Positions 27,660 to 39,304 of a stretch of DNA of 47,998 nucleotides are shown here, piece after piece (position 1 is the first letter of the stretch; the number at the start of each line of letters is the position of its first letter). The notes under the pieces are model-generated. The model did no database searches. It was not told the origin of the DNA and was given only the letters and a program-made list of their open reading frames with translations. Source of the DNA: a bacterium (GTDB taxonomy: Bacteria > UBA9089 > CG2-30-40-21 > SBAY01); contig JBFLXS010000004.1 of the NCBI GenBank assembly GCA_040755795.1, positions 1 to 47,998 on the forward strand, written 5' to 3'. A program made the translations under genes and the position numbers.

Positions 27660-28838
27660 TCACAACCCTAAATCTGTAGGTGCTCTGCCAATGCATTGCA
27701 ATAATGTTACGACTTCTTCTATCTTATCAGAAAGGGTTTTATTCCCATCTGTATGACCTGGGTAGATGTCGTAAAAGGGGCGATATTTTTGTGGGGTAAG
27801 ATTAATCATTAGAGAATTTCCACCACTCAAAAGACCGCGTATTAGACCTTCTTCCTTATCAATGGTCTCTAAGGCAGTAGTCACCAGTATCCTTGATTGA
27901 GGATACCTTATCCTTGCCCGAGCGACGGTAGTTAATGCCGTTTCAAGGGATGGCTTTTCGGCATTGCTCAGGGGTGTCTGAGGATGGGGGATAAATGGAC
28001 CAAAAGAAAACATCTCGGCGTTAAGAGAGGCGGTTAACTCAACATCGTTAAGAATATCTTCCTCTGTCTGTTGCGGTAACCCGACTAAAAATCCGCTAAA
28101 GATAAGATAACCAAGCTGATATAACTCCTTAACCAAATTAATTCTATCTTTCAGTTTATGGTTGGGTCTGTATCTCTCATAAAGCTGTGGATTGCTTGTC
28201 TCAAATCTAATAAGCACTGCTCGAGCACCGGCATCATACAATCTTTTATAAATTGCTATATCCCTTTCGCCCAGACTTAATATCAGCAAAACAGGCGTCC
28301 GCCTCATAATATTTTCAACAATGGTTATCAGTTTTTCCTCTGTATACCAGGGGTCTTCTCCTGATTGTAAAACTAATGCCTTAAAATTTAATTCATTAAC
28401 CACATAAGCACAATGTTCAATTATCTCTTCTGGTTGCATTCTGTAGCGTTTAATTTCCGTGTTATCTCTACGCAGTCCACAGTAAAGGCAGTTATTTTGA
28501 CACCAGTTAGAAAATTCTATAATTCCATGCACACAGCAGGCATTACCCAGATGTTTTTGTCGAATAGAATTTGCTTGTTGGTAAAGGGTTTTCGCCTCTC
28601 GGGTAAGCCTTAAATCTGTTTCTTTGAGTTTGAAGAAGAATTCTTGCCAGGTATTAAGGATAGAAAGGGCATCTGGAGTGGGTATCTGTCGGATGATAAA
28701 TCCGCCCTGAGCATAGACATACTCGCCTGGGGTTAATTTAAAGAAATCATTCCTTGCCTTTCTCTTTTCCCCAAAGTAATCAACAGTAACTATATTATCA
28801 TTTATTTCAACAACCTTAGCCGGTATAGCGTAACACAT
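27660..28838 (-). CDS. hydE: HypC-HydE fusion: hydrogenase maturation chaperone joined to a radical-SAM maturase
   Basis: A 392-aa protein. Residues 1 to about 75 are HypC/HupF-like (MCYAIPAKVVEI, with the essential Cys2). Residues 80-392 are a HydE radical-SAM enzyme: CxxxCxxC at 113-120 (CQNNCLYC), VLQSGEDPWYT, LSLGERDIAIYKRLYDAGA, RFETSNPQLYERYRP, GFLVGLPQQTEEDIL, FGPFIPHPQTPL, and an IGRAPTDLG end. HypC carries the Fe(CN)2CO precursor for [NiFe]-hydrogenase; HydE acts in [FeFe]-hydrogenase cofactor assembly. The ATG is 4 bases after the hydG stop. I know of no described function for such a fusion; its position after mvhA and hydG points to [NiFe] maturation (inference). Confidence 0.9.
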   Translation of the reverse strand: MCYAIPAKVVEINDNIVTVDYFGEKRKARNDFFKLTPGEYVYAQGGFIIRQIPTPDALSILNTWQEFFFKLKETDLRLTREAKTLYQQANSIRQKHLGNACCVHGIIEFSNWCQNNCLYCGLRRDNTEIKRYRMQPEEIIEHCAYVVNELNFKALVLQSGEDPWYTEEKLITIVENIMRRTPVLLILSLGERDIAIYKRLYDAGARAVLIRFETSNPQLYERYRPNHKLKDRINLVKELYQLGYLIFSGFLVGLPQQTEEDILNDVELTASLNAEMFSFGPFIPHPQTPLSNAEKPSLETALTTVARARIRYPQSRILVTTALETIDKEEGLIRGLLSGGNSLMINLTPQKYRPFYDIYPGHTDGNKTLSDKIEEVVTLLQCIGRAPTDLGL

Positions 28839-28842
28839 ATTT

Positions 28843-30225
28843 TTAGAAATACAGGTCTCTTTCGCCCTCTTTAATCCTCTTTAAATATTTTTTTGTTTGA
28901 TGGCGCAGATTTTTATCTTCCATTTTGTTCAGGTAAAAATTTACTACCTCATAGCCCTTTTGATACAATCCATTAGACTTATTGGCAAAATCTTCTAAGT
29001 ATTCAGCAAAGGTAAGTAGTCCATTAGGCCGACAGAAGTTGTGAATTTCACCCGGCTTTGCCAGGCCCATAAAGACATCACCCGTTCGACCACGACGATA
29101 ACAAGCCGTGCAAAAACTGGGTAATAACCTATCCTCTAAAGCAGTAGAGATAACCTCGTTTAATGAACGGTGGTCATAAACCGTAAATTGCCCGTTACCA
29201 TTATCCCTTCCATATCCTCCTACTGTAGTTACTGACCCGGCTGATGTTTGGGAGATGCCAATCCGATAGGCAATCTTTCTTATCTCTGGAGTTTCACGGG
29301 TAGAGATAATCATACCGGTATAGGGCACTGCTAACCTTAGTATAGCAATAATTTTGAGGAATTCAGCATCGGTAACTTCGTAACCCTCTGGTTTATATTT
29401 GATGGTTGAAGCTTCCCGAAAACGCGGGACAGAGAAGGTATGCGGTCCTACCCCGTATTTTTGCTCGAAGTATTGGGCATGGGATACCAGGGCTAATACC
29501 TCAAACCGCCAGTCATAAAGTCCAAATAACACCCCAAAGCCTAAATCATCAATCTCTGATTCAAAGGCTCTGTTATGGGCAGTCAGTTGCCTGATATAAT
29601 CTGCCTTTGGACCACGGTGTAATCTCTGGTAGGTCTCCTGATGGTATGTCTCCTGAAAGAGTTGATAGGTGCCTATCCCTGCTTGCTTTAGATTCTTATA
29701 GTTCTCTACAGTGGTAGCCCCGATATTGACATTTATCCTTCTAATATTACCAACCGGCAGTCTGACCGAATATATCTTTTCTATGGCTTCAACCACATAA
29801 TCTATCGGGTTATTAATTGGGTCCTCACCCAGCTCAAGCAGCAACCTTTTGTGCCCCATCTTAAGTAAGAACTCTGTCTGCTCCTGGACCTCTTCTAATG
29901 TCAATCTGTGACGGGTTAGCTCTCGATTGCTGAGGTGATAATTGCAGTAGGCACAATCATTGATGCAAAAGTTTGAGGTATAGAGTGGAGCAAAAAATAC
30001 CAGCCGTTCACCATAGATCTCATCCTTAATCTTACCTGCTCGCTCATACATCTCATTTATAAATTCAGTATCCGACAGATTAACTAAGAATCCAACCTCC
30101 TCTAAACTCAATCCTTTCTTTTCCTTAGCCTTACCAAAGATGTCTTTGATTAGCTCAGGGGTTGGGTTCTTTGTCTTTTGTAGGATTTCGTTGATCCTTT
30201 CCTGGTTAATTATCTCTTGAGTCAT
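28843..30225 (-). CDS. hydG: HydG, radical-SAM tyrosine lyase
   Basis: A 460-aa enzyme of normal HydG length. The SAM cluster motif CxxxCxxC is at residues 87-94 (CINDCAYC). The second-cluster motif CX2CX22C, the HydG hallmark that separates it from ThiH, spans residues 372-398 (CTAC to NFC). Also seen are LYTSNFCIND, QLFQETYHQETYQRLHRGPK, FGLYDWRFEVLALVSHAQYF and GMIISTRETPEIR. HydG cleaves tyrosine to p-cresol and gives Fe-bound CO and CN for [FeFe]-hydrogenase. No hydA or hydF is in the window; instead it lies in an operon with a [NiFe]-hydrogenase, protease, hypA and hypC-hydE. The GTCTGAC-rich spacer precedes it. Confidence 0.93.
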   Translation of the reverse strand: MTQEIINQERINEILQKTKNPTPELIKDIFGKAKEKKGLSLEEVGFLVNLSDTEFINEMYERAGKIKDEIYGERLVFFAPLYTSNFCINDCAYCNYHLSNRELTRHRLTLEEVQEQTEFLLKMGHKRLLLELGEDPINNPIDYVVEAIEKIYSVRLPVGNIRRINVNIGATTVENYKNLKQAGIGTYQLFQETYHQETYQRLHRGPKADYIRQLTAHNRAFESEIDDLGFGVLFGLYDWRFEVLALVSHAQYFEQKYGVGPHTFSVPRFREASTIKYKPEGYEVTDAEFLKIIAILRLAVPYTGMIISTRETPEIRKIAYRIGISQTSAGSVTTVGGYGRDNGNGQFTVYDHRSLNEVISTALEDRLLPSFCTACYRRGRTGDVFMGLAKPGEIHNFCRPNGLLTFAEYLEDFANKSNGLYQKGYEVVNFYLNKMEDKNLRHQTKKYLKRIKEGERDLYF

Positions 30226-30237
30226 CTTTTTTATTTT

Positions 30238-30291
30238 AGTCTGACAAGTCTGACAGGTCAGACAGGTCTGACAGGTCAGACTACTCTCCTT
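30238..30291. repeat. GTCTGACAG nonamer repeat between hypA and hydG
   Basis: Alternating GTCTGACAG and GTCAGACAG units (TCTGACAAGTCTGACAGGTC and following) form a self-complementary array that touches the hypA stop. The same motif recurs at 30540-30586, inside the helix-bundle remnant at about 30680-30717, and at 31085-31150 in the protease C-terminus. Confidence 0.75.
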
Positions 30292-30523
30292 CTACAGTCT
30301 CAATAGTAATCCCCTGCCCATCGCCCTTTTTAACCTCCAACTCACTCCCTTCAACCATTGTCCCTTTCCCCAGGCATTCAAAGCATAACTTTATTGCATC
30401 AGGTGTTAAATGGTCGTCCTCGCCTACGGATAAAGAGACCCTGGTTACCTTGCTCACGCCGTTCTTATTAGATATCTTAATGACTTCATCTATTGCTTCT
30501 TGTGTAATTCCCCATTCATGCAT
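30281..30523 (-). CDS. hypA: Short HypA-like nickel chaperone lacking the zinc domain
   Basis: An 80-aa protein. It begins MHEWGITQEAIDEVIKISNK, the HypA start with His2 and Glu3 used for nickel binding, and continues with VTRVSLSVGEDDHLTPDAIK and LCFECLGKGTMVEGSELEVK. Usual HypA is about 113-120 residues with two CxxC zinc motifs; here both are missing and the last strand (GITIETVEGE) follows almost directly. GGAG precedes the ATG. It should help load Ni into the Mvh large subunit, though loss of the zinc site may change how it works. GTCTGAC repeats flank it on both sides. Confidence 0.82.
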   Translation of the reverse strand: MHEWGITQEAIDEVIKISNKNGVSKVTRVSLSVGEDDHLTPDAIKLCFECLGKGTMVEGSELEVKKGDGQGITIETVEGE

Positions 30524-30575
30524 AAATAGCTCCTTTTTGTCAGAATAGTCGGACCTGTCAGACTTGTCGGACCTG

Positions 30576-31067
30576 TCAGACTATTATTTTTTTTTGCCGC
30601 TCCTGGTATAGCCGTTCTGTGAAACCACCATTGATTGTATTTGCTGCCACCTCAGCTGAGGCTTGTTTGATGCAGTAAGGGTCGGACAGGTCGGACTTGT
30701 CTGACTGGTCAGACTTATATCTTCTCCTCACCGCAAGTGCTTCAGGTGAGTCTTTATTCCATCTGTTCAATCCATGCTGACGCAAGAAATCCTCGTAATC
30801 AAGCACCAGTTCTTCAAGGCTGGCTCTTGCAATTCCTGTTAATTTAAGTTCAATCTTCTTTGAGGTTGCAGAAGCCATACTGCCTTCAGGAATATTTTGC
30901 ACACCGCTACGGGCGGCCTGTATCATTTGGTCGTGAGTGCGCGAATATTTCTCAATAAAGCGATTGCAAAAGATAACCGTCGCATCATAGACTAATTGTG
31001 CGGTCTGGAAACTACGGAGATTACAGTATCCGCCGTGAGGTGGGATGAGGTTATGTCTCTGGTTTAT
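30576..31067 (-). pseudogene. Decayed four-helix-bundle protein gene (23S rRNA IVP-like)
   Basis: Reading upstream of the first ATG (30926), the frame continues with IPPHGGYCNLRSFQTAQLVY, FCNRFIEKYSRTHDQ and then MIQAARSGVQNIPEGSMASA, a well-known four-helix-bundle family related to 23S rRNA intervening-sequence proteins. The position that should be the start codon is ATA at 31067-31065, behind AAGGAG. Between AANT and GGFTERLY about 25-30 residues of the last helix are missing. It contains a KSDQSDKSDLSDP insert, as relatives often do. It overlaps the end of the protease gene by four bases and lies inside the hydrogenase operon. It is probably non-functional. Confidence 0.75.
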
Positions 31068-31609
31068 AGAATGCTCCTTTTTGGGTCAGACAAGTTTGAT
31101 CTGTCTGACGAGTCTGACAGGTCAGACAGGTCAGACAGGTCAGACAGTATCATCTTACAGGCAGCAGGTATCGCCTCAGATAGTCTATTAGAGAGCCCTG
31201 GCTGAACCATTTCTGGTATGTTTTCTACCTGTGCGGCAATGAGTTTTACCTCTACCTGACCTAACACCTTAAGTTCTCTGAGTAGATTTGAGGTTGGGAT
31301 TTGATGCATCGAAAAGTCATCCACCTTATTTTTCGGTAAATCCTCAATTGCTACCTCAAAAACCTCACCTGGTTTTCTACCTGCGTCTATAGCATCAACG
31401 ATAATAATCTTTTGCGGCTTTATTTCAGAGAGTAATAGATTAAACAGTATCTCTCGCACACCACTGCCTACATCTATTACTGCTACATCTTGAGGCAGGT
31501 CATAGTGTTTCTGAAGATATTCTACCACAGCTGGCCCAAATCCATCATCCCCAAATAGAATATTTCCACAACCTAAAATAAGCACACGCTTTTCGTAATA
31601 ATCAAGCAT
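31064..31609 (-). CDS. hycI: [NiFe]-hydrogenase maturation endopeptidase
   Basis: A 181-aa protein of the HyaD/HycI/HoxW family. VLILGCGNILFGDDGFGPAV has the first acidic nickel ligand, KIIIVDAIDAG the second, and MHQIPTSNLLRELKVLG the His region. It removes the C-terminal peptide of the hydrogenase large subunit after nickel insertion; its presumed target, mvhA, ends 8 bases upstream. The last 25 residues (SDLSDLSDLSDSSDRSNLSD) are translated from the GTCAGACAG repeat array and are not part of the family fold. The original stop may have been lost to repeat expansion. Confidence 0.9.
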   Translation of the reverse strand: MLDYYEKRVLILGCGNILFGDDGFGPAVVEYLQKHYDLPQDVAVIDVGSGVREILFNLLLSEIKPQKIIIVDAIDAGRKPGEVFEVAIEDLPKNKVDDFSMHQIPTSNLLRELKVLGQVEVKLIAAQVENIPEMVQPGLSNRLSEAIPAACKMILSDLSDLSDLSDSSDRSNLSDPKRSIL

Positions 31610-31617
31610 AACCTTTT

Positions 31618-33060
31618 TTAATTCCTTAAACTATCTATTATCTCCCCTGCCGAATTAATAAGGTCTATCTTCACAGGCAGCCTGCCATCTAAATCATGGG
31701 TAGCACAGGAAAGACAGGGGTCATAGGCACGAATTGCCATCTCAACCCGATTAAGTATCCTCTGGTCGTATTTGCCATCCTTAATGTTATCCATTGCCGC
31801 TTTCTTAACTGACATATTTATGGGTGCATTGTTATGGGTCGTGCCTACAATTAGATTAACATTAGTAACCAGACCATTCTCATCCGTCTCATAATCATGG
31901 ATTAATGTTCCTCTGGGTGCCTCTACACAGCCTATTCCACGACTCGCTCTGGGGGTAACGGATTTCCTGATATCTATGCTGATAATCTCTGGGTCATCTA
32001 AAAGTTTAACTATATGTTCGGCATTGTAGAGCAATTCAATCAAGCGTGCCCAATGATAAAGCAGGGTTAACTGAGCCGGTCTGCCAAAATTGCTCCTAAA
32101 TTCCTCAAGCTCACTTTGAGCAAGCGATGTCCCAATCTTATCGCAAACATTGATTCTCGCCAGAGTGTTTGTTCGGTATATTCCCACTGGATTGTTTAAA
32201 TCCATTGAAAAACCTCCCGCCTTTCTCATATAAGGAAACTTGAGGTATGTCCACGGTTCAATATGTTCTGCAATATAGTCAGTGTATTGGTTATAATCAA
32301 AGTCATGGTAACTTCCATCTGCCTGCATCATCCTTAATCTGCCGTCATAAAGGTCAAGGCATCCGTCCTCTCTAACTGTGCCCAGAAAGCCTGTCTTTAT
32401 CACCCCCAAAGTCTGGACTGCCTCAAGGAATGGTGGGAAGATATTCTTTTTCGCAAAGTCAATCGAGAATTTTGCCAGTTCTAATATCTCCATAGCCTTC
32501 GCCTTCATCTCATCCCTTTCTTGTGTAGTTAAAGCTTTACTGAATCCGCCAGGCACAGCCGCTACGGGATGAATGGATTTACCACTCAAGATTTCCAGCA
32601 TCTGAGCACCCAGATGCCTGCATCTAACCACCTGTTTAGCCACATCAGGGAGTTTTTGAGCAATACCGATGACATTTCTAATTGAATAATCCGCATCCGG
32701 CCCGATAACAAAATCTGCCCCTGCCAGAAAATAAAAGTGCAAGATATGCTCCTCTGTAAAGGCAATAGCATTCGCCAATTCCCTGAGTTTTTTAGCCGCA
32801 GAAGGAATCTCCACCCCAAAAACGGCATCATTTGCCTTAGCACTGGCTAAATGATGCGACCAGGGACAAACACCACAAATACTGGTTACAATCCTGGGCA
32901 GTTCCTCCACTGGTCTGCCAATGCAGAATTTCTCAAAGCCACGCAGTTCAACAACATTAACCATTGTCTCCTGCACATTCCCATTATCATCCAATTGAAT
33001 GGTCACCTTAGCATGACCCTCAATTCTGGTTACTGGTTGTATGATGATCTTTTTACCCAT
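31618..33060 (-). CDS. mvhA: [NiFe]-hydrogenase large subunit, Mvh type (group 3c)
   Basis: A 480-aa subunit starting at ATG 33060, five bases after GGAG; the TTG at 33063 is an alternative. The nickel ligands are in ICGVC (Cys62 and Cys65) and DPCLSC near residues 447-452, followed by ATH. About 25 residues follow that His and would be cut by the maturation protease encoded next door. QPVTRIEGHAKV and RGFEKFCIGRPVEELP are typical. With MvhG and MvhD it oxidises H2 and passes electrons to HdrA. All four Cys are present, so the site should be active. Confidence 0.95.
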   Translation of the reverse strand: MGKKIIIQPVTRIEGHAKVTIQLDDNGNVQETMVNVVELRGFEKFCIGRPVEELPRIVTSICGVCPWSHHLASAKANDAVFGVEIPSAAKKLRELANAIAFTEEHILHFYFLAGADFVIGPDADYSIRNVIGIAQKLPDVAKQVVRCRHLGAQMLEILSGKSIHPVAAVPGGFSKALTTQERDEMKAKAMEILELAKFSIDFAKKNIFPPFLEAVQTLGVIKTGFLGTVREDGCLDLYDGRLRMMQADGSYHDFDYNQYTDYIAEHIEPWTYLKFPYMRKAGGFSMDLNNPVGIYRTNTLARINVCDKIGTSLAQSELEEFRSNFGRPAQLTLLYHWARLIELLYNAEHIVKLLDDPEIISIDIRKSVTPRASRGIGCVEAPRGTLIHDYETDENGLVTNVNLIVGTTHNNAPINMSVKKAAMDNIKDGKYDQRILNRVEMAIRAYDPCLSCATHDLDGRLPVKIDLINSAGEIIDSLRN

Positions 33061-33114
33061 CAAATCTCCTTTTTCTTATAAGTCTATATGTCGTATATAT
33101 CTTATTCTCCTATG

Positions 33115-34041
33115 TCATGCCCTCTTCGGCAGTGGTCTTAATCTGCCATGAGCACCAATATATCTCTGAAAGGTAGCTGATCTGTCAAGGATTGACTTTA
33201 GGTCTAATCCAGTAGTAGAAAGTGCACCCATCATATCTACCATTGGATTAGCACCTTTTCTGATTGGACCAAAGCAGGCTCGACAGGGCATTCCTGCTTT
33301 AATACATCGTGGTATTTTTGCAGAGCCACCACAACCAGACTTAGTCACCGGTCCAAGACATAAAAATCCAAGCTCCATAAAACAGCGTGATTCTTCTAAT
33401 TTTTGCCCCGGCGGGATAATCGGCTCAAGCGGCCTCTTTATAGAGGTTACTGCCTTCTTTTCCCGTTTAGTTGGGCAGTCATCACACACACTCCGCTCTG
33501 GTAAGGTAAATGGCTTGCCCGAAAGCAGGGCAGTTAGTGCCTCAGCTACTATCTCTGGTGAAGGAGGACATCCAGGGATATAAATATCAACCTTGATCTC
33601 CTCATCAAGGGCATAAACCCGATCAGTCAGTGGTGGAAGTTCTTGTGAGGGTGTCTCTCCAGAGTCCGTAGTCTTGGAGTTACGATAGATTTTATCGTAA
33701 ATTTCCTCTAAATTATATTGATTCGCTAAGGCAGGGATACCACCATAGCAGGCACAAGAGCCAAGAGCCATTACTACCGAACATTTCTTGCACATCTCCT
33801 CTGCCACATGCTTTTCCTTCTCATTGCGTATCCCACCGGAGATAATACCAACTGTAGCCTCTGGTATCTCCATTTCCTCCTTTTCGCCGGTCTGTCCGTA
33901 GTATTTATGGTCCATAATCACCGGCATATGGACAAACTCAAGTTGAGGTAACAAATCCAGTAATGGTTCTCCAATGTCCAGAATAGTTACCTCACACCCA
34001 CCACAAATGTTTAACCACTCCTCTGCAACCTTCACTGCCAT
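33115..34041 (-). CDS. mvhG: [NiFe]-hydrogenase small subunit, Mvh type
   Basis: A 308-aa cytoplasmic small subunit with no Tat signal. The N-terminal WLNICGGCEVTILDIGEPLL supplies the proximal-cluster Cys. VVMALGSCACYGGIPALANQ and IYIPGCPPSPEIVAEALTAL follow. A Cys-rich C-terminal half (CDDCPTK, CFMELGFLCLGPVTKSGCGG, CRACFGPIRKG) holds the other clusters. It relays electrons from MvhA to MvhD and HdrA. GGAG precedes the ATG, and it is separated from mvhD and mvhA by short gaps, so it is one operon. Confidence 0.94.
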   Translation of the reverse strand: MAVKVAEEWLNICGGCEVTILDIGEPLLDLLPQLEFVHMPVIMDHKYYGQTGEKEEMEIPEATVGIISGGIRNEKEKHVAEEMCKKCSVVMALGSCACYGGIPALANQYNLEEIYDKIYRNSKTTDSGETPSQELPPLTDRVYALDEEIKVDIYIPGCPPSPEIVAEALTALLSGKPFTLPERSVCDDCPTKREKKAVTSIKRPLEPIIPPGQKLEESRCFMELGFLCLGPVTKSGCGGSAKIPRCIKAGMPCRACFGPIRKGANPMVDMMGALSTTGLDLKSILDRSATFQRYIGAHGRLRPLPKRA

Positions 34042-34057
34042 AATTTCTTATCTCCTT

Positions 34058-34477
34058 TTAATTCCTTGTTGAATATGGGCTTGGTCCTAATTGCTTTATT
34101 GTTTCAGTAAATTCTGTCATCACCTGAGCAAATCTTTGCCCTTCTGCGGCAGAGACCCATTCTAACCTAAATCTCTCCTGTTCAATTCCAAAGTCATCCA
34201 GCATTAACTGGATAGCCTCTGCCCTGCTTTGGGCTTTAAGATTCCCTTCCAGATAATGGCAGTCACCAATATGACAGCCACAGATAAGGACACCATCCGC
34301 ACCCTTAGTTAAGGCATCGATGACTAAATTAGGGTGAATCATTCCAGAACACATCACCCGAATAATGCGATTATTAGCAGGATACTGTAATCTTGATACA
34401 CCTGCCAGGTCTGCCCCGGCATAAGAACACCAGTTGCAACAAAAAGTCAGGATTTTGGGTTCAAAGTCTTTTTCCAT
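34058..34477 (-). CDS. mvhD: MvhD, [2Fe-2S] electron-transfer subunit linking hydrogenase to HdrA
   Basis: A 139-aa protein starting at ATG 34477, seven bases after AGAGG; the ORF is open to 34492 but that start lies on the ribosome-binding site. The FrhD/MvhD signature ILTFCCNWCSYAGADLAGVS with clustered Cys, VICGCHIGDCHYLEGN-like ICGCHIGDCHY, and CSGMIHPNLVIDAL are clear. It binds a [2Fe-2S] cluster and docks on HdrA in Mvh-Hdr and MetFV-Hdr complexes. A 294-bp mobile element sits directly upstream, between it and hdrA. Confidence 0.94.
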   Translation of the reverse strand: MEKDFEPKILTFCCNWCSYAGADLAGVSRLQYPANNRIIRVMCSGMIHPNLVIDALTKGADGVLICGCHIGDCHYLEGNLKAQSRAEAIQLMLDDFGIEQERFRLEWVSAAEGQRFAQVMTEFTETIKQLGPSPYSTRN

Positions 34478-34501
34478 AATAAAACCTCTCATTTAAAGTA
34501 G

Positions 34502-34796: not shown

Positions 34797-34861
34797 AAAG
34801 TAGGAAAGTAGGAAAGGGAGTATCCTCTTTTCCCTTTCCTACTTTCCTATTTTCCTACTTC
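34797..34861. repeat. GTAGGAAA hairpin between hdrA and the element upstream of mvhD
   Basis: AGTAGGAAAGTAGGAAAGGG faces CCCTTTCCTACTTTCCTA around a loop of about 13 bases. The hdrA stop and its last codons (V G K stop) are read from the right arm. In the operon transcript this gives a long hairpin just after hdrA, which could reduce or process the downstream message. Confidence 0.65.
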
Positions 34862-37800
34862 TTCCAACGCCGCCTCCACCTGTGCGGCAATCTGCTCAAG
34901 CCTGAACCCTCTAACAAATATCCCTTTCTTGGGACAGGTAGCCATACATACTCCACAGCCATGGCATTTGGCAATATCTACCTTAACCGTCTTTTTGATA
35001 GCTCCATCCTTCTCATATTCAACTAAGGTAATTGCCTTATATGGGCAGGGGTCAACACAATAAGCACAGCCATCACAATTGGCATCTATCACCTCAGCTA
35101 TCCTCGGGTCTATCTCCAGTTCATCCTTAGAGAGTATTACCGATGCCCGAGCTGCCGCCGCCATGGCTTGAATGATGGATTCAGGGATAGTTTTGGGTCC
35201 ATGGGCAGTGCCGCAAACAAAAATTCCCTCAGTAGCAAAATCTACAGGCCTTAACTTCATATGCGCCTCTAAGAAAAAGCCGTGTTCATTTAACGACACC
35301 TTTAATTTCTGAGCAATATCCTTGTTTGATTCATTGGCTTGTGTGCCAGAAGAAAGAACAACTAAATCCGCGGGTAGGTCTATCTTCATTCCCAAAAGCA
35401 TATCCAGGACAGAAACATTTATCTGACCATTTTTCAGCTCAACTTGCGGTTTTTCATTATCCTGTCTCTGGATAAATTTAATTCCCTTTTCCCTTGCCTG
35501 GCGGTAATATTCCTCATAATATCCATAAGCACGAATATCACGGTATATAATATAGACATCTGTCTGCGGATAGACCTCCTTGATTTTTAAGCCATTCTTA
35601 ATTGCCTCTTGACAGCATACCCGTGAGCAATACATTCGCTCTTCTTCGCGTGAACCAACACACTGGAGCATCACTACGGTATTCGGGACTCGGGGCTCGG
35701 GACTCGGGGCTCGGGGTTCGAGATTCGCTAATCGCTCCTCTAATTCAAGTTGTGTTATTACGCGTTTGTCTTGACCGTAGAGATATTCTGTTGGCTTGTA
35801 TTCTGTGGCGCCAGTAGCCACGATGACCACACCGTGTTCTATTTCTGCACTCGTTCCATTAACCGCCAATTGTGTTTTAAAGTTTCCTACGCTTCCTTCG
35901 ATATTTACCAGCTGGGTATTGAGATACAACTTTATCTTTGGGTGATTTTTGACCTCACTAACTACTTTTTCCCATAATTTATTTCTTTCCGCTCCAAGAA
36001 GATATTTAATCCTTTGGTTATATCCGCCAATTTCCTGGTTCTTTTCAATCAAATGAACTTGATAACCTTGTCGGGCTATTTCGATACTTGCGGTTAATCC
36101 AGCTATGCCAGCACCAATAACTAAGGCAGACTTGTTTACCGTTAGATAGCTTGGATACAACGGCTCATTCATTCTCACCTTAGCCAACGCCATTTTAATC
36201 AGGTCTTTTGCCTTCTGGGTGGCTTTTTGTGGTTCTTGTCTATGCACCCAGGAATTTTGGTCGCGGATATTAGCCATTTCAAAGAGGTACGGATTAAGCC
36301 CGGCATTCCTTAAAACCTCCATAAAGAGCGGCTCGTGCGTGCGCGGGGTGCAAGCGGCTACTACCACGCGATTCAACCCCTCCTTCTGGATAACCTCCTT
36401 TATCCGCTCACAACTATCACTTGAACAGGTGTATAACCTATTCTCACAATGCACTACATTGGGTAATCTCCGCACATACTCAACTACACTGTTAACATCT
36501 ACTACACCGGCAATATTTGTCCCGCAGTGGCAGACAAATACACCCACCCTTGGCTCTTCTTGAGTCACATCGCGTTGTGGAGGATACTCCTGCTTCTTGA
36601 CTAAGCTCCATTTGACATCAGAGAGAATGGCTAAACATTCAGCCGCAGATGCACTTGCCTCCATTACACTCTCTGGAATATCCTTTGGTCCTGTGGCTAC
36701 ACCCGCCGCAAAAATTCCCTCCAGATTTGTCTTTAGGAAAGCATCGGTCTCCACAAACCCAAACTCATTCAGCCGCAGATTCAACCGCTGGGCAATAGCC
36801 TTTACTGGCTGTGGTGTGATACCCACACACAAGACGACTAAATCGAACTCCTCCTCGATTATCTCGCCAGAAAGTCCATAGCGGATAACCAGACCCTTTG
36901 TCTGAGGGTTTTGCTTGAGGGTTGACGGTGTCTGATTAATATACGCTATCCCCTCTTTTTTCGCCCGTTCATAATAGGCTTCATACCCCTTGCCAAAGGC
37001 TCGCACATCCCGATAGAATATCTTACATTCCAAATCTGGCAGATGTTCCTTAGCGATTATCGCCTCTTTGGTGGCATACATACAACAGACGGATGAGCAC
37101 CAGGGTCTTTCTGTATCCCTTGAGCCAACGCACTGGATAAAGGCAATCTTGTGCGGATGGGTTTTATCTGATGGTCTTAACACCTCTCCTCTAAAGGGAC
37201 CTGATGCACCCATTATCCGTTCAAACTCCAGGCTGGTGACCACATTGGGATACCTGCCGTAGCCGTATTCGCCAGCGAGTTTTGCCTCAAAAGTTTCATA
37301 ACCAGGGGCTATGATTACCGCACCTACCTCCAGATTAATGGCTTCTTGTTTCTGCTGGTGCTCTATTGCTTCTGCCTTGCACGCCTGGACACACATCAGG
37401 CATTCAGAGCAGCCACCGCAGTTGAGGCAGCGTTTTGCCTCTTTGACTGCCTGTTCTTGAGAATAGCCCAATTCGATCTCTTCAAAGTCCTTTATTCGCT
37501 CCTGTGGTAGCAATTTAGGCATTGGTTGTCTCTGCTCTATCTTAATCTCCCTTTGAGGCAGGTTTGCCCCTGCTTCGGTCTTTTTTTCTCGGCCTTCGAA
37601 CATATCCATCCCTTGCAGATAGCGATGGATGGATTCTGCTGCCTCGTGTCCGTGTGCAATTGCATCCACTGCCATGCCAGACAACCCGATTACATCACCA
37701 CCAGCAAATATCCCAGGCACATTTGTAGCTAAGGTGGTTTTATCAACCTTTAAAAAGCCCCGCTCAGTTATCAATACCCCATCTGCGGCTTGAACCATTG

Positions 37801-39304
37801 AGTAGTCCACCACTTGTCCTACTGCAATAATAACCGTATCTGCATCCATCGTGGTGATATTTTCTCTGGCAAATACCGGGCTAAACCTTCCCTGTTTATC
37901 AAACACAGAAAGGCATTCTATCAGTTCTATGGCACAGACAGAGCCGTCTTTGCCCAATATGCGGTTTGTCCCTTTGCGGTGAAGGATGGTTATCCCTTCC
38001 TCTTTGGCGTCTTTGATTTCCTGTGGATGAGCAGGCATCTCCTCAAGGGATTCCATGCACACCATACTAACCTTCTCTGCCCCTAAGCGTAATACGGTTC
38101 TGGCAACATCAGTAGCTACATTGCCGCCGCCGATAACCGCTACCACCTTACCAGTTAAGTCTATCTCTCTATGCCGCTTGACACTATGCAAAAAGGAGGT
38201 TCCGTGGACAACCCCGGCTAAATCCTCTCCCTCAATATTCAATCTCTTGCTCTGATGCATACCAATAGCGATAAAGATAGCTTTATAGCCTCTATCAAAG
38301 AGGTCATTCAGGGTTAAATCTGGACCCAGCGGGGTATTAGTTAGTATCTCTACCCCTGAGTTTTTTATCTGTTCGATTTCATAGTCAATAATCTCTGCGG
38401 GTAAACGATATTGCGGGATACCTACCCGCAGCATACCACCTGCCACCGGTAAAGCCTCAAATATGGTTACCGGGTATCCGCGTTGAGTCAGATTATAGGC
38501 ACAGGTTAGTCCAGCAGGACCAGAGCCAATTACGGCTATCTTCTCAGGGTATTTCACTTCAACTTTAGAGGGTTGCCAGCCGCCATTTACTCTTTCATAA
38601 TCAGATACAAAGCGTTTTAATGCCCGGATGCTCAAGGGTTCGTCAACATCCTTGCGATTACATTTACTCTCACAGGGTGCGTTACAAATACGGCCGCATA
38701 TCGAGGGAATAGGGATTCTGCGGCGAATAACCTCCATTGCCTCTTTAAATCTTCCCTGACTGATCAAGGCGATGTATGCCTGATTATCACAACCGGCCGA
38801 GCAGGCGAGGCGACAGGGTGATTTATGTTCGGATTTGTCTATGGTGAACCAGTTGGGGACTGCCTGAGGGTAAAGACGATAGATTGCCTTTCTCTGGTTA
38901 AGCGAGCAGTTAAATCCATCCGGCACCTCTACAGGACAGGCCGTCTCACATTCACCACAGCCAGTGCATCTGTCTTCACGCACATATCTTGCGTGCTTAT
39001 TCAATCTAACCGTAAAATTGCCAGCCTGCCCAGAAATAGACTCTATATCGCTCAGGGTAATTATTTCGATATCCTTATGTCTGCCAATCTCAACCAGTCT
39101 GGGAGCCATCGTGCACATCGCACAATCGTTAGTCGGGAAGGTTTTATCGAGCATCGCCATCACGCCACCGATGCTGGGTCTGGTATCTACCAGATAGACC
39201 TTTATCCCACTATTAGCCAGGTCAAGTGCGGCTTGCATGCCGGCAATACCGCCACCAAGCACTAAACAAGAACCGATTTTTGTATTTTTTATTTCCGTTG
39301 CCAT
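34847..39304 (-). CDS. hdrA: Giant HdrA: two HdrA modules with an NfnB/GltD-like flavoprotein insert
   Basis: A 1485-aa flavoprotein. Residues 1-150: first HdrA FAD site (VLGGGIAGMQAALDL) and ferredoxin motif CTGCGECETACP. Residues about 160-610: a GltD/NfnB-like module with CRLACSAGC and CGRICNAPCESKC clusters, FAD site GSGPAGLTCAYNL near 257, GGGNVATDVA near 388 and FAGGD near 530. Residues about 620-900: CLNCGGCSECLMCVQAC and CVGSRD near 725. Residues about 920-1485: second HdrA with CHCGTN, FAD site IGAGIAGLTASIEI near 1062 and terminal ferredoxin CDGCAYCVDPCP and CHGCGVCMATCP. HdrA bifurcates electrons; the NfnB part suggests NAD(P)H as an added partner (inference). An in-frame EPRAPSPEPRV insert comes from a DNA repeat. 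Confidence 0.93.
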   Translation of the reverse strand: MATEIKNTKIGSCLVLGGGIAGMQAALDLANSGIKVYLVDTRPSIGGVMAMLDKTFPTNDCAMCTMAPRLVEIGRHKDIEIITLSDIESISGQAGNFTVRLNKHARYVREDRCTGCGECETACPVEVPDGFNCSLNQRKAIYRLYPQAVPNWFTIDKSEHKSPCRLACSAGCDNQAYIALISQGRFKEAMEVIRRRIPIPSICGRICNAPCESKCNRKDVDEPLSIRALKRFVSDYERVNGGWQPSKVEVKYPEKIAVIGSGPAGLTCAYNLTQRGYPVTIFEALPVAGGMLRVGIPQYRLPAEIIDYEIEQIKNSGVEILTNTPLGPDLTLNDLFDRGYKAIFIAIGMHQSKRLNIEGEDLAGVVHGTSFLHSVKRHREIDLTGKVVAVIGGGNVATDVARTVLRLGAEKVSMVCMESLEEMPAHPQEIKDAKEEGITILHRKGTNRILGKDGSVCAIELIECLSVFDKQGRFSPVFARENITTMDADTVIIAVGQVVDYSMVQAADGVLITERGFLKVDKTTLATNVPGIFAGGDVIGLSGMAVDAIAHGHEAAESIHRYLQGMDMFEGREKKTEAGANLPQREIKIEQRQPMPKLLPQERIKDFEEIELGYSQEQAVKEAKRCLNCGGCSECLMCVQACKAEAIEHQQKQEAINLEVGAVIIAPGYETFEAKLAGEYGYGRYPNVVTSLEFERIMGASGPFRGEVLRPSDKTHPHKIAFIQCVGSRDTERPWCSSVCCMYATKEAIIAKEHLPDLECKIFYRDVRAFGKGYEAYYERAKKEGIAYINQTPSTLKQNPQTKGLVIRYGLSGEIIEEEFDLVVLCVGITPQPVKAIAQRLNLRLNEFGFVETDAFLKTNLEGIFAAGVATGPKDIPESVMEASASAAECLAILSDVKWSLVKKQEYPPQRDVTQEEPRVGVFVCHCGTNIAGVVDVNSVVEYVRRLPNVVHCENRLYTCSSDSCERIKEVIQKEGLNRVVVAACTPRTHEPLFMEVLRNAGLNPYLFEMANIRDQNSWVHRQEPQKATQKAKDLIKMALAKVRMNEPLYPSYLTVNKSALVIGAGIAGLTASIEIARQGYQVHLIEKNQEIGGYNQRIKYLLGAERNKLWEKVVSEVKNHPKIKLYLNTQLVNIEGSVGNFKTQLAVNGTSAEIEHGVVIVATGATEYKPTEYLYGQDKRVITQLELEERLANLEPRAPSPEPRVPNTVVMLQCVGSREEERMYCSRVCCQEAIKNGLKIKEVYPQTDVYIIYRDIRAYGYYEEYYRQAREKGIKFIQRQDNEKPQVELKNGQINVSVLDMLLGMKIDLPADLVVLSSGTQANESNKDIAQKLKVSLNEHGFFLEAHMKLRPVDFATEGIFVCGTAHGPKTIPESIIQAMAAAARASVILSKDELEIDPRIAEVIDANCDGCAYCVDPCPYKAITLVEYEKDGAIKKTVKVDIAKCHGCGVCMATCPKKGIFVRGFRLEQIAAQVEAALEEVGK

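Follow-up and report, generated by a model that had tools for sequence, protein, structure and literature searches.

In the Hyp system of [NiFe]-hydrogenase maturation, HypC (through Cys2) and HypD (through Cys41) are believed to carry the Fe(CN)2CO unit between them, and the paper that sets out this system mentions neither HydG nor radical SAM enzymes (PMC12134894). In [FeFe]-hydrogenase maturation, HydG makes an Fe(CN)(CO)2-cysteine unit that passes directly to HydE, which reduces it toward a dimer (PMC12752695). Genes of both kinds occur together in the DNA analysed here, a stretch of 47,998 nucleotides from a bacterial contig (JBFLXS010000004.1), referred to as the window. The original prediction for this locus was a hybrid radical SAM route to the [NiFe] centre, with HydG as a possible source of CO. 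The analysis goes further, in that the genes present suggest a route that stands in for the whole Hyp Fe(CN)2CO pathway and does more than feed CO into it. A HypC-HydE fusion and HydG are likely to constitute a Hyp-independent route that builds and delivers the iron half of the [NiFe] cofactor, taking the place of HypD, HypE, HypF and free-standing HypC.

The hydrogenase operon and the HypC-HydE fusion

The operon is read on the minus strand from 39304 down to 27660 and encodes, in this order, an HdrA-like protein, MvhD, MvhG, MvhA, a maturation protease, a 116-aa ORF, a short HypA, HydG and the HypC-HydE fusion. The HdrA-like protein (34847-39304, 1485 aa) sits beside the Mvh subunits and has an apparent GltD-like NAD(P)H oxidoreductase insert and an apparent second HdrA-like half. 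Family searches identify an MvhD/FlpD iron-sulfur subunit (34058-34492), an MvhG/VhuG-type [NiFe]-hydrogenase small subunit (33115-34041) and an MvhA/VhuA-type large subunit (31618-33063). The large subunit has the N-terminal CxxC, the C-terminal DPCxxC and the cleavable tail of an MvhA-type [NiFe] enzyme; both ligand motifs, CGVC and DPCLSCATH, are intact, the protease-removable tail is 25 aa long, and the closest solved structure is MvhA 5odc. The large subunits of the window type (31618-33063 in the window, L217 and L222) carry Ser for Arg before the N-terminal CxxC, reading TSICGVC as against the RICGIC of most others. The HycI/FrhD-type protease (31064-31609) matches TIGR00130 with 135.7 bits against a cut-off of 134.95.

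HydG and the fusion follow mvhA, its protease and hypA in the predicted order, but the HypA (30281-30523) has only 80 aa and no zinc domain, and an extra ORF of 116 aa (30576-30926) that matched no Pfam family separates it from the protease. At least 11 further loci (L042, L046, L051, L061, L073, L078, L088, L095, L097, L098 and L099) have HypA-like proteins of 80-83 aa close to the fusion, with the N-terminal MHE retained and the zinc domain lacking, which shows that the short form did not arise by a truncation particular to the window. The counterpart of the 116-aa ORF at the same place in the sister genome is 209 aa long (L034:3179-3805), and the window version may thus be shortened or frameshifted. 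Repeats of 9 and 18 bases of the GTCAGACAG type occur between and inside the operon genes (30239-30281, 30538-30583, 30681-30716 and 31112-31147), giving rise to SDLSDLSD tails, and similar runs are present in the sister genome.

The last gene of the operon (27660-28838, minus strand) encodes the fusion in a single open frame of 392 aa, bearing out the predicted joining of HypC to HydE. Pfam HupF_HypC matches residues 1-64 with 48.2 bits (cut-off 28.5) and Pfam Radical_SAM matches residues 107-268. The NCBIfam HypC model TIGR00074 scores 39.4, below its cut-off of 48. The HydE model TIGR03956 scores 253.6 bits and misses its cut-off of 254.6 by one bit, and the HydE part is thus a divergent HydE. 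The HypC domain spans residues 1-65 (28644-28838) and the HydE-type radical SAM domain residues 80-392 (27663-28601), with the SAM cysteines at positions 113, 117 and 120. An AlphaFold2 model computed from 57 natural sequences has a mean pLDDT of 93.6 and a pTM of 0.92, so the two domains are predicted to form one well-ordered unit, and the best PDB fold matches of the model are T. maritima HydE (TmHydE) structures at 37-40% identity.

Conservation was followed through the aligned fusions. Cys2 of the HypC domain is invariant (74/74), and Gln44 is found in all 75 at the position of the histidine in the VHxGFA stretch of HypC, as represented by E. coli HypC. The CX3CX2C SAM cysteines are kept. 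A family-specific Cys101-Cys102-x-His104 motif (28527-28538), aligned with Val51, His52 and Arg54 of TmHydE, has Cys101 in 72/75 fusions and both Cys102 and His104 in 75/75; it is absent from all seven ordinary HydE proteins of a small comparison set. Among the residues chosen here to represent the TmHydE cavity, the equivalents of Q107, R159, E161, M224, T268, M291, Y303 and Y306 are kept in the fusions and those of T134, R155, P292 and R54 are lost.

HydG (28843-30225, minus strand, 460 aa) is encoded directly upstream, and 4 bases separate its end from the start of the fusion. It matches TIGR03955 with 539.3 bits (cut-off 312) and contains the CX3CX2C and CX2CX22C motifs and the GPHT dangler-iron histidine. 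The SAM and dangler-iron histidine motifs are present in 31/31 fusion-adjacent HydG proteins, 26 of which have the exact CX2CX22C spacing. The HydG tree shows no distinct clade devoted to [NiFe] maturation; fusion-linked and HydF-linked proteins are intermixed in it, which agrees with one HydG serving both hydrogenase types. Elsewhere, a HydG-like protein with an intact CX2CX22C motif (L037:5680-7056) occupies the expected thiH place upstream of apparent thiG and thiC, as read from sequence starts, and its genome encodes a canonical HydG as well. In a single-contig WOR-1 genome (L229), HydG is not linked to the fusion, and its neighbours are three MinD/ParA-type ATPases and some small proteins which, again by their sequence starts, resemble dinitrogenase iron-molybdenum cofactor factors; these neighbours are a possible lead to further assembly factors.

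Distribution of the fusion and gene content of the genomes

Of 41 genomes searched, some related and others distant, those with the fusion belong to the window's genus, with 97% identity in a second genome, apart from one genome of a different lineage. There the fusion is at the head of an Ech-like [NiFe] operon that also contains hypA and hypB. When GTDB genomes were scanned for the first 138 residues of the fusion, the result was 77 loci from many bacterial and DPANN phyla, labelled in their records as Omnitrophota, Elusimicrobia, Planctomycetes, Lentisphaerae, Verrucomicrobia, Margulisbacteria, WOR-1, Spirochaetes, Fibrobacteres, deltaproteobacteria, Nanoarchaeota, Micrarchaeota and others. 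Its recurrence at 97% identity within the genus and as one open frame across many phyla excludes an assembly artefact. The HydE parts of 75 fusions are split from the seven ordinary HydE proteins by one branch with 100/100 support, which fits a single origin followed by wide spread.

The linkage to [NiFe]-hydrogenase genes recurs in many phyla. Neighbours within about 7 kb on the same strand were grouped by BLAST and clustering, and the fusion often adjoins group-3 or group-4 [NiFe]-hydrogenase genes, a HycI-type protease and HydG. The [NiFe] large-subunit family is a neighbour at 34 loci, the protease at 27, the small subunit at 25 and HydG at about 30; these counts are lower bounds because many contigs end near the fusion.

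Whole-genome family searches covered 52 fusion-bearing genomes, namely 50 from the 77-locus scan and the window's two (its own genome and the second of the genus). The 50 were hand-picked across phyla and contig sizes rather than sampled at random, and are mostly metagenome drafts, some of them small or fragmented. E. coli and other controls score over the cut-offs in the HypD, HypE and HypF searches. HypD is absent from 51/52 genomes, and neither HypE nor HypF is over cut-off in any of the 52. The sub-cut-off HypF matches comprise a 448-bit piece in the one HypD-bearing genome, two partial matches of 125-128 bits to the C-terminal region elsewhere, and weak hits that lie, by our reading of the domains, within the acylphosphatase, Sua5-like and TsaD-like ranges. 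The [NiFe] large-subunit family is matched in all 52 genomes, some matches being short and the ligand motifs having been checked in part of the hydrogenases. HydG is over cut-off in 47/52; four genomes (G045, G072, G081 and G086) have no match over or near the cut-off, for which draft incompleteness may be the explanation.

HydA is found in 16/52 genomes and HydF is over cut-off in 11/52, a further two falling slightly short at 319-322 bits. Neither HydA nor HydF is found in 36/52, so the fusion persists in genomes without [FeFe]-hydrogenase genes, and HydG is present in 35 of these 36. The window's genome (100% complete, 4.2% contamination) is one of them. The original prediction had seen no hydA or hydF in the window, and the search extends this to the whole genome; hydA and hydF together with a complete separate hyp set were looked for there and not found, since HypD, HypE and HypF are likewise absent by family search. 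The hybrid route is thus upheld by gene content, with the window's genome resembling 35 others. Of the 19 genomes surveyed from the window's phylum, 10 have HypD, 2 have the fusion and none has both.

Individual genomes illustrate these patterns. The single-contig WOR-1 genome mentioned above, of 1,668,697 bases and labelled curated complete, contains the fusion and HydG and is without HypD, HypE, HypF, HydA and HydF by family search; its hydrogenase is of the group-4 type, with ERICGIC and VDPCYCC motifs, and is accompanied by a protease. In the sole HypD-bearing genome of the 52, HypD clusters with a separate group-1-type hydrogenase, HypA, HypB and the HypF piece, and the fusion adjoins an Ech-like operon. 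An Elusimicrobia contig (L231) encodes a [NiFe] operon that includes a protease, a short HypA and the fusion; next come HydA, HydG, an ordinary HydE and HydF. A second genome (L232-L233) has the same layout. Only one HydG is over cut-off in the Elusimicrobia genome, so in such genomes a single HydG would have to serve both hydrogenase types.

A proposed route to the iron unit and its alternatives

Gene content strongly supports a Hyp-independent route. Gene content, linkage and conservation are direct observations, and from them we infer the chemistry of the route, especially its 2 CN : 1 CO stoichiometry. The simplest reading is that the fusion receives the unit made by HydG, keeps it mononuclear and passes it on via Cys2, because HydF and HydA are missing and HypC is attached. 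The first step would be cleavage of tyrosine by HydG to give a cysteine-bound Fe-CO/CN unit, a chemistry established for [FeFe] HydG and suggested here by the intact motifs. The unit would then move directly to the HydE domain and be reduced by radical SAM chemistry; this reduction is established for HydE, and the SAM cluster and most pocket residues point to it in the fusion. At the third step, which is speculative, the unit would stay mononuclear instead of being dimerised for HydF, held between Cys2 and the Cys101/Cys102/His104 group, a candidate stand-in for HypD Cys41. The HypC domain would presumably dock on the apo-large subunit and hand over the unit via Cys2 as in ordinary HypC. Nickel insertion and C-terminal cleavage would follow, probably with HypA and the HycI-type protease.

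HydG is known to yield Fe(CN)(CO)2 and [NiFe]-hydrogenase carries Fe(CN)2CO, so the route requires either that ligands are exchanged or that HydG forms another product here. Any scheme for how two CN and one CO reach the iron is speculative, and the changes at the TmHydE pocket residues T134, R155 and P292 count against the route. The same mismatch raises an alternative in which the fusion and HydG produce a modified iron centre, for example Fe(CO)2CN, instead of the standard Fe(CN)2CO. In its favour, two CO and one CN are what HydG normally supplies (PMC12752695), the HydE-domain pocket is altered, and the LIVxTT stretch of window-type large subunits has Gly in place of the Ala of MvhA structures. 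This last difference is slight and confined to window-type enzymes, whereas the corresponding IPT stretch looks ordinary in 3b-like enzymes from other fusion loci and no consistent change was found in the CO/CN pocket of the large subunits. A modified centre is unlikely.

It is very improbable that the fusion and HydG supply CO only, with CN coming from carbamoyl phosphate via HypE and HypF and assembly proceeding on HypCD. Cyanide from carbamoyl phosphate and HypCD assembly form the sole demonstrated route (PMC12134894), but the proteins it needs are those missing from these genomes, HypD in 51/52 and HypE and HypF over cut-off in all. About as improbable is that the fusion acts for some other enzyme or survives as a leftover of [FeFe] maturation, and that the [NiFe] enzymes are unmatured or made otherwise. 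HydE and HydG are indeed known from [FeFe] maturation only, but HydA and HydF are both missing from 36 of the genomes, every member of the family carries HypC, constraint acts on the SAM and Cys2 residues, and [NiFe] genes neighbour the fusion in unrelated phyla. That hyp genes exist and fall in gaps of these mostly metagenomic, sometimes small or fragmented drafts can be practically dismissed, given that three genes are jointly missing in 51 genomes, that a 100% complete genome and a single-contig genome have the identical loss, and that the HypD search does detect its target in the window's phylum.

The Hyp-independent route formed by the fusion and HydG is likely to be an undescribed and widespread pathway that makes the [NiFe] cofactor without HypD, HypE and HypF, draws CO and CN from tyrosine via HydG, and uses the fusion to rebuild and deliver the unit; a non-standard CO/CN ligand set may even occur. 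As the original prediction supposed, no description of a HypC-HydE fusion or its route was found in a literature search, beyond whose reach lay preprints and many subscription papers.

Relation to known maturation systems

All parts of the route are members of known protein families, but together they seem to make up an undescribed pathway. Many poorly known anaerobes, both bacterial and archaeal, apparently make the iron-CO-cyanide half of the cofactor with two radical enzymes taken over from the iron-iron pathway. If so, the four-protein Hyp route is not universally required, and the origin of CO in anaerobes is answered for at least one large group of organisms. Two hydrogenase maturation systems that are regarded as separate would have merged, and [NiFe] production would need a smaller gene set, the fusion and HydG in place of four Hyp proteins. 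The fusion would also provide a clear test system for how HydE-type enzymes handle a mononuclear iron unit.

The proposed route resembles the HypC/HypD/HypE/HypF pathway in serving the same enzyme class, in using a HypC-type protein with an essential Cys2 and in the presence of a protease and HypA. It differs in that HypD, HypE and HypF are absent, HypC is fused to a radical SAM enzyme, and CO and CN are proposed to come from tyrosine. With HydE/HydF/HydG maturation it shares a HydG with all metal-site motifs and a HydE-type fold with the SAM cluster and most cavity residues; unlike that system, it occurs in 36 genomes without HydF and HydA, its HydE is HypC-fused and has a new Cys-Cys-x-His motif, and the proposed product is mononuclear. 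As with HypX, the aerobic CO source for [NiFe] enzymes, an additional enzyme provides the CO ligand, but HypX uses formyl-tetrahydrofolate alongside the full Hyp set (PMC12134894), whereas here the Hyp set is absent and CN is needed too. The fusion is, finally, a predicted functional analogue of the HypCD scaffold, with HypC Cys2 and a partner cysteine holding the iron unit, although the HydE domain has no sequence relationship to HypD and the partner lies on the same chain.
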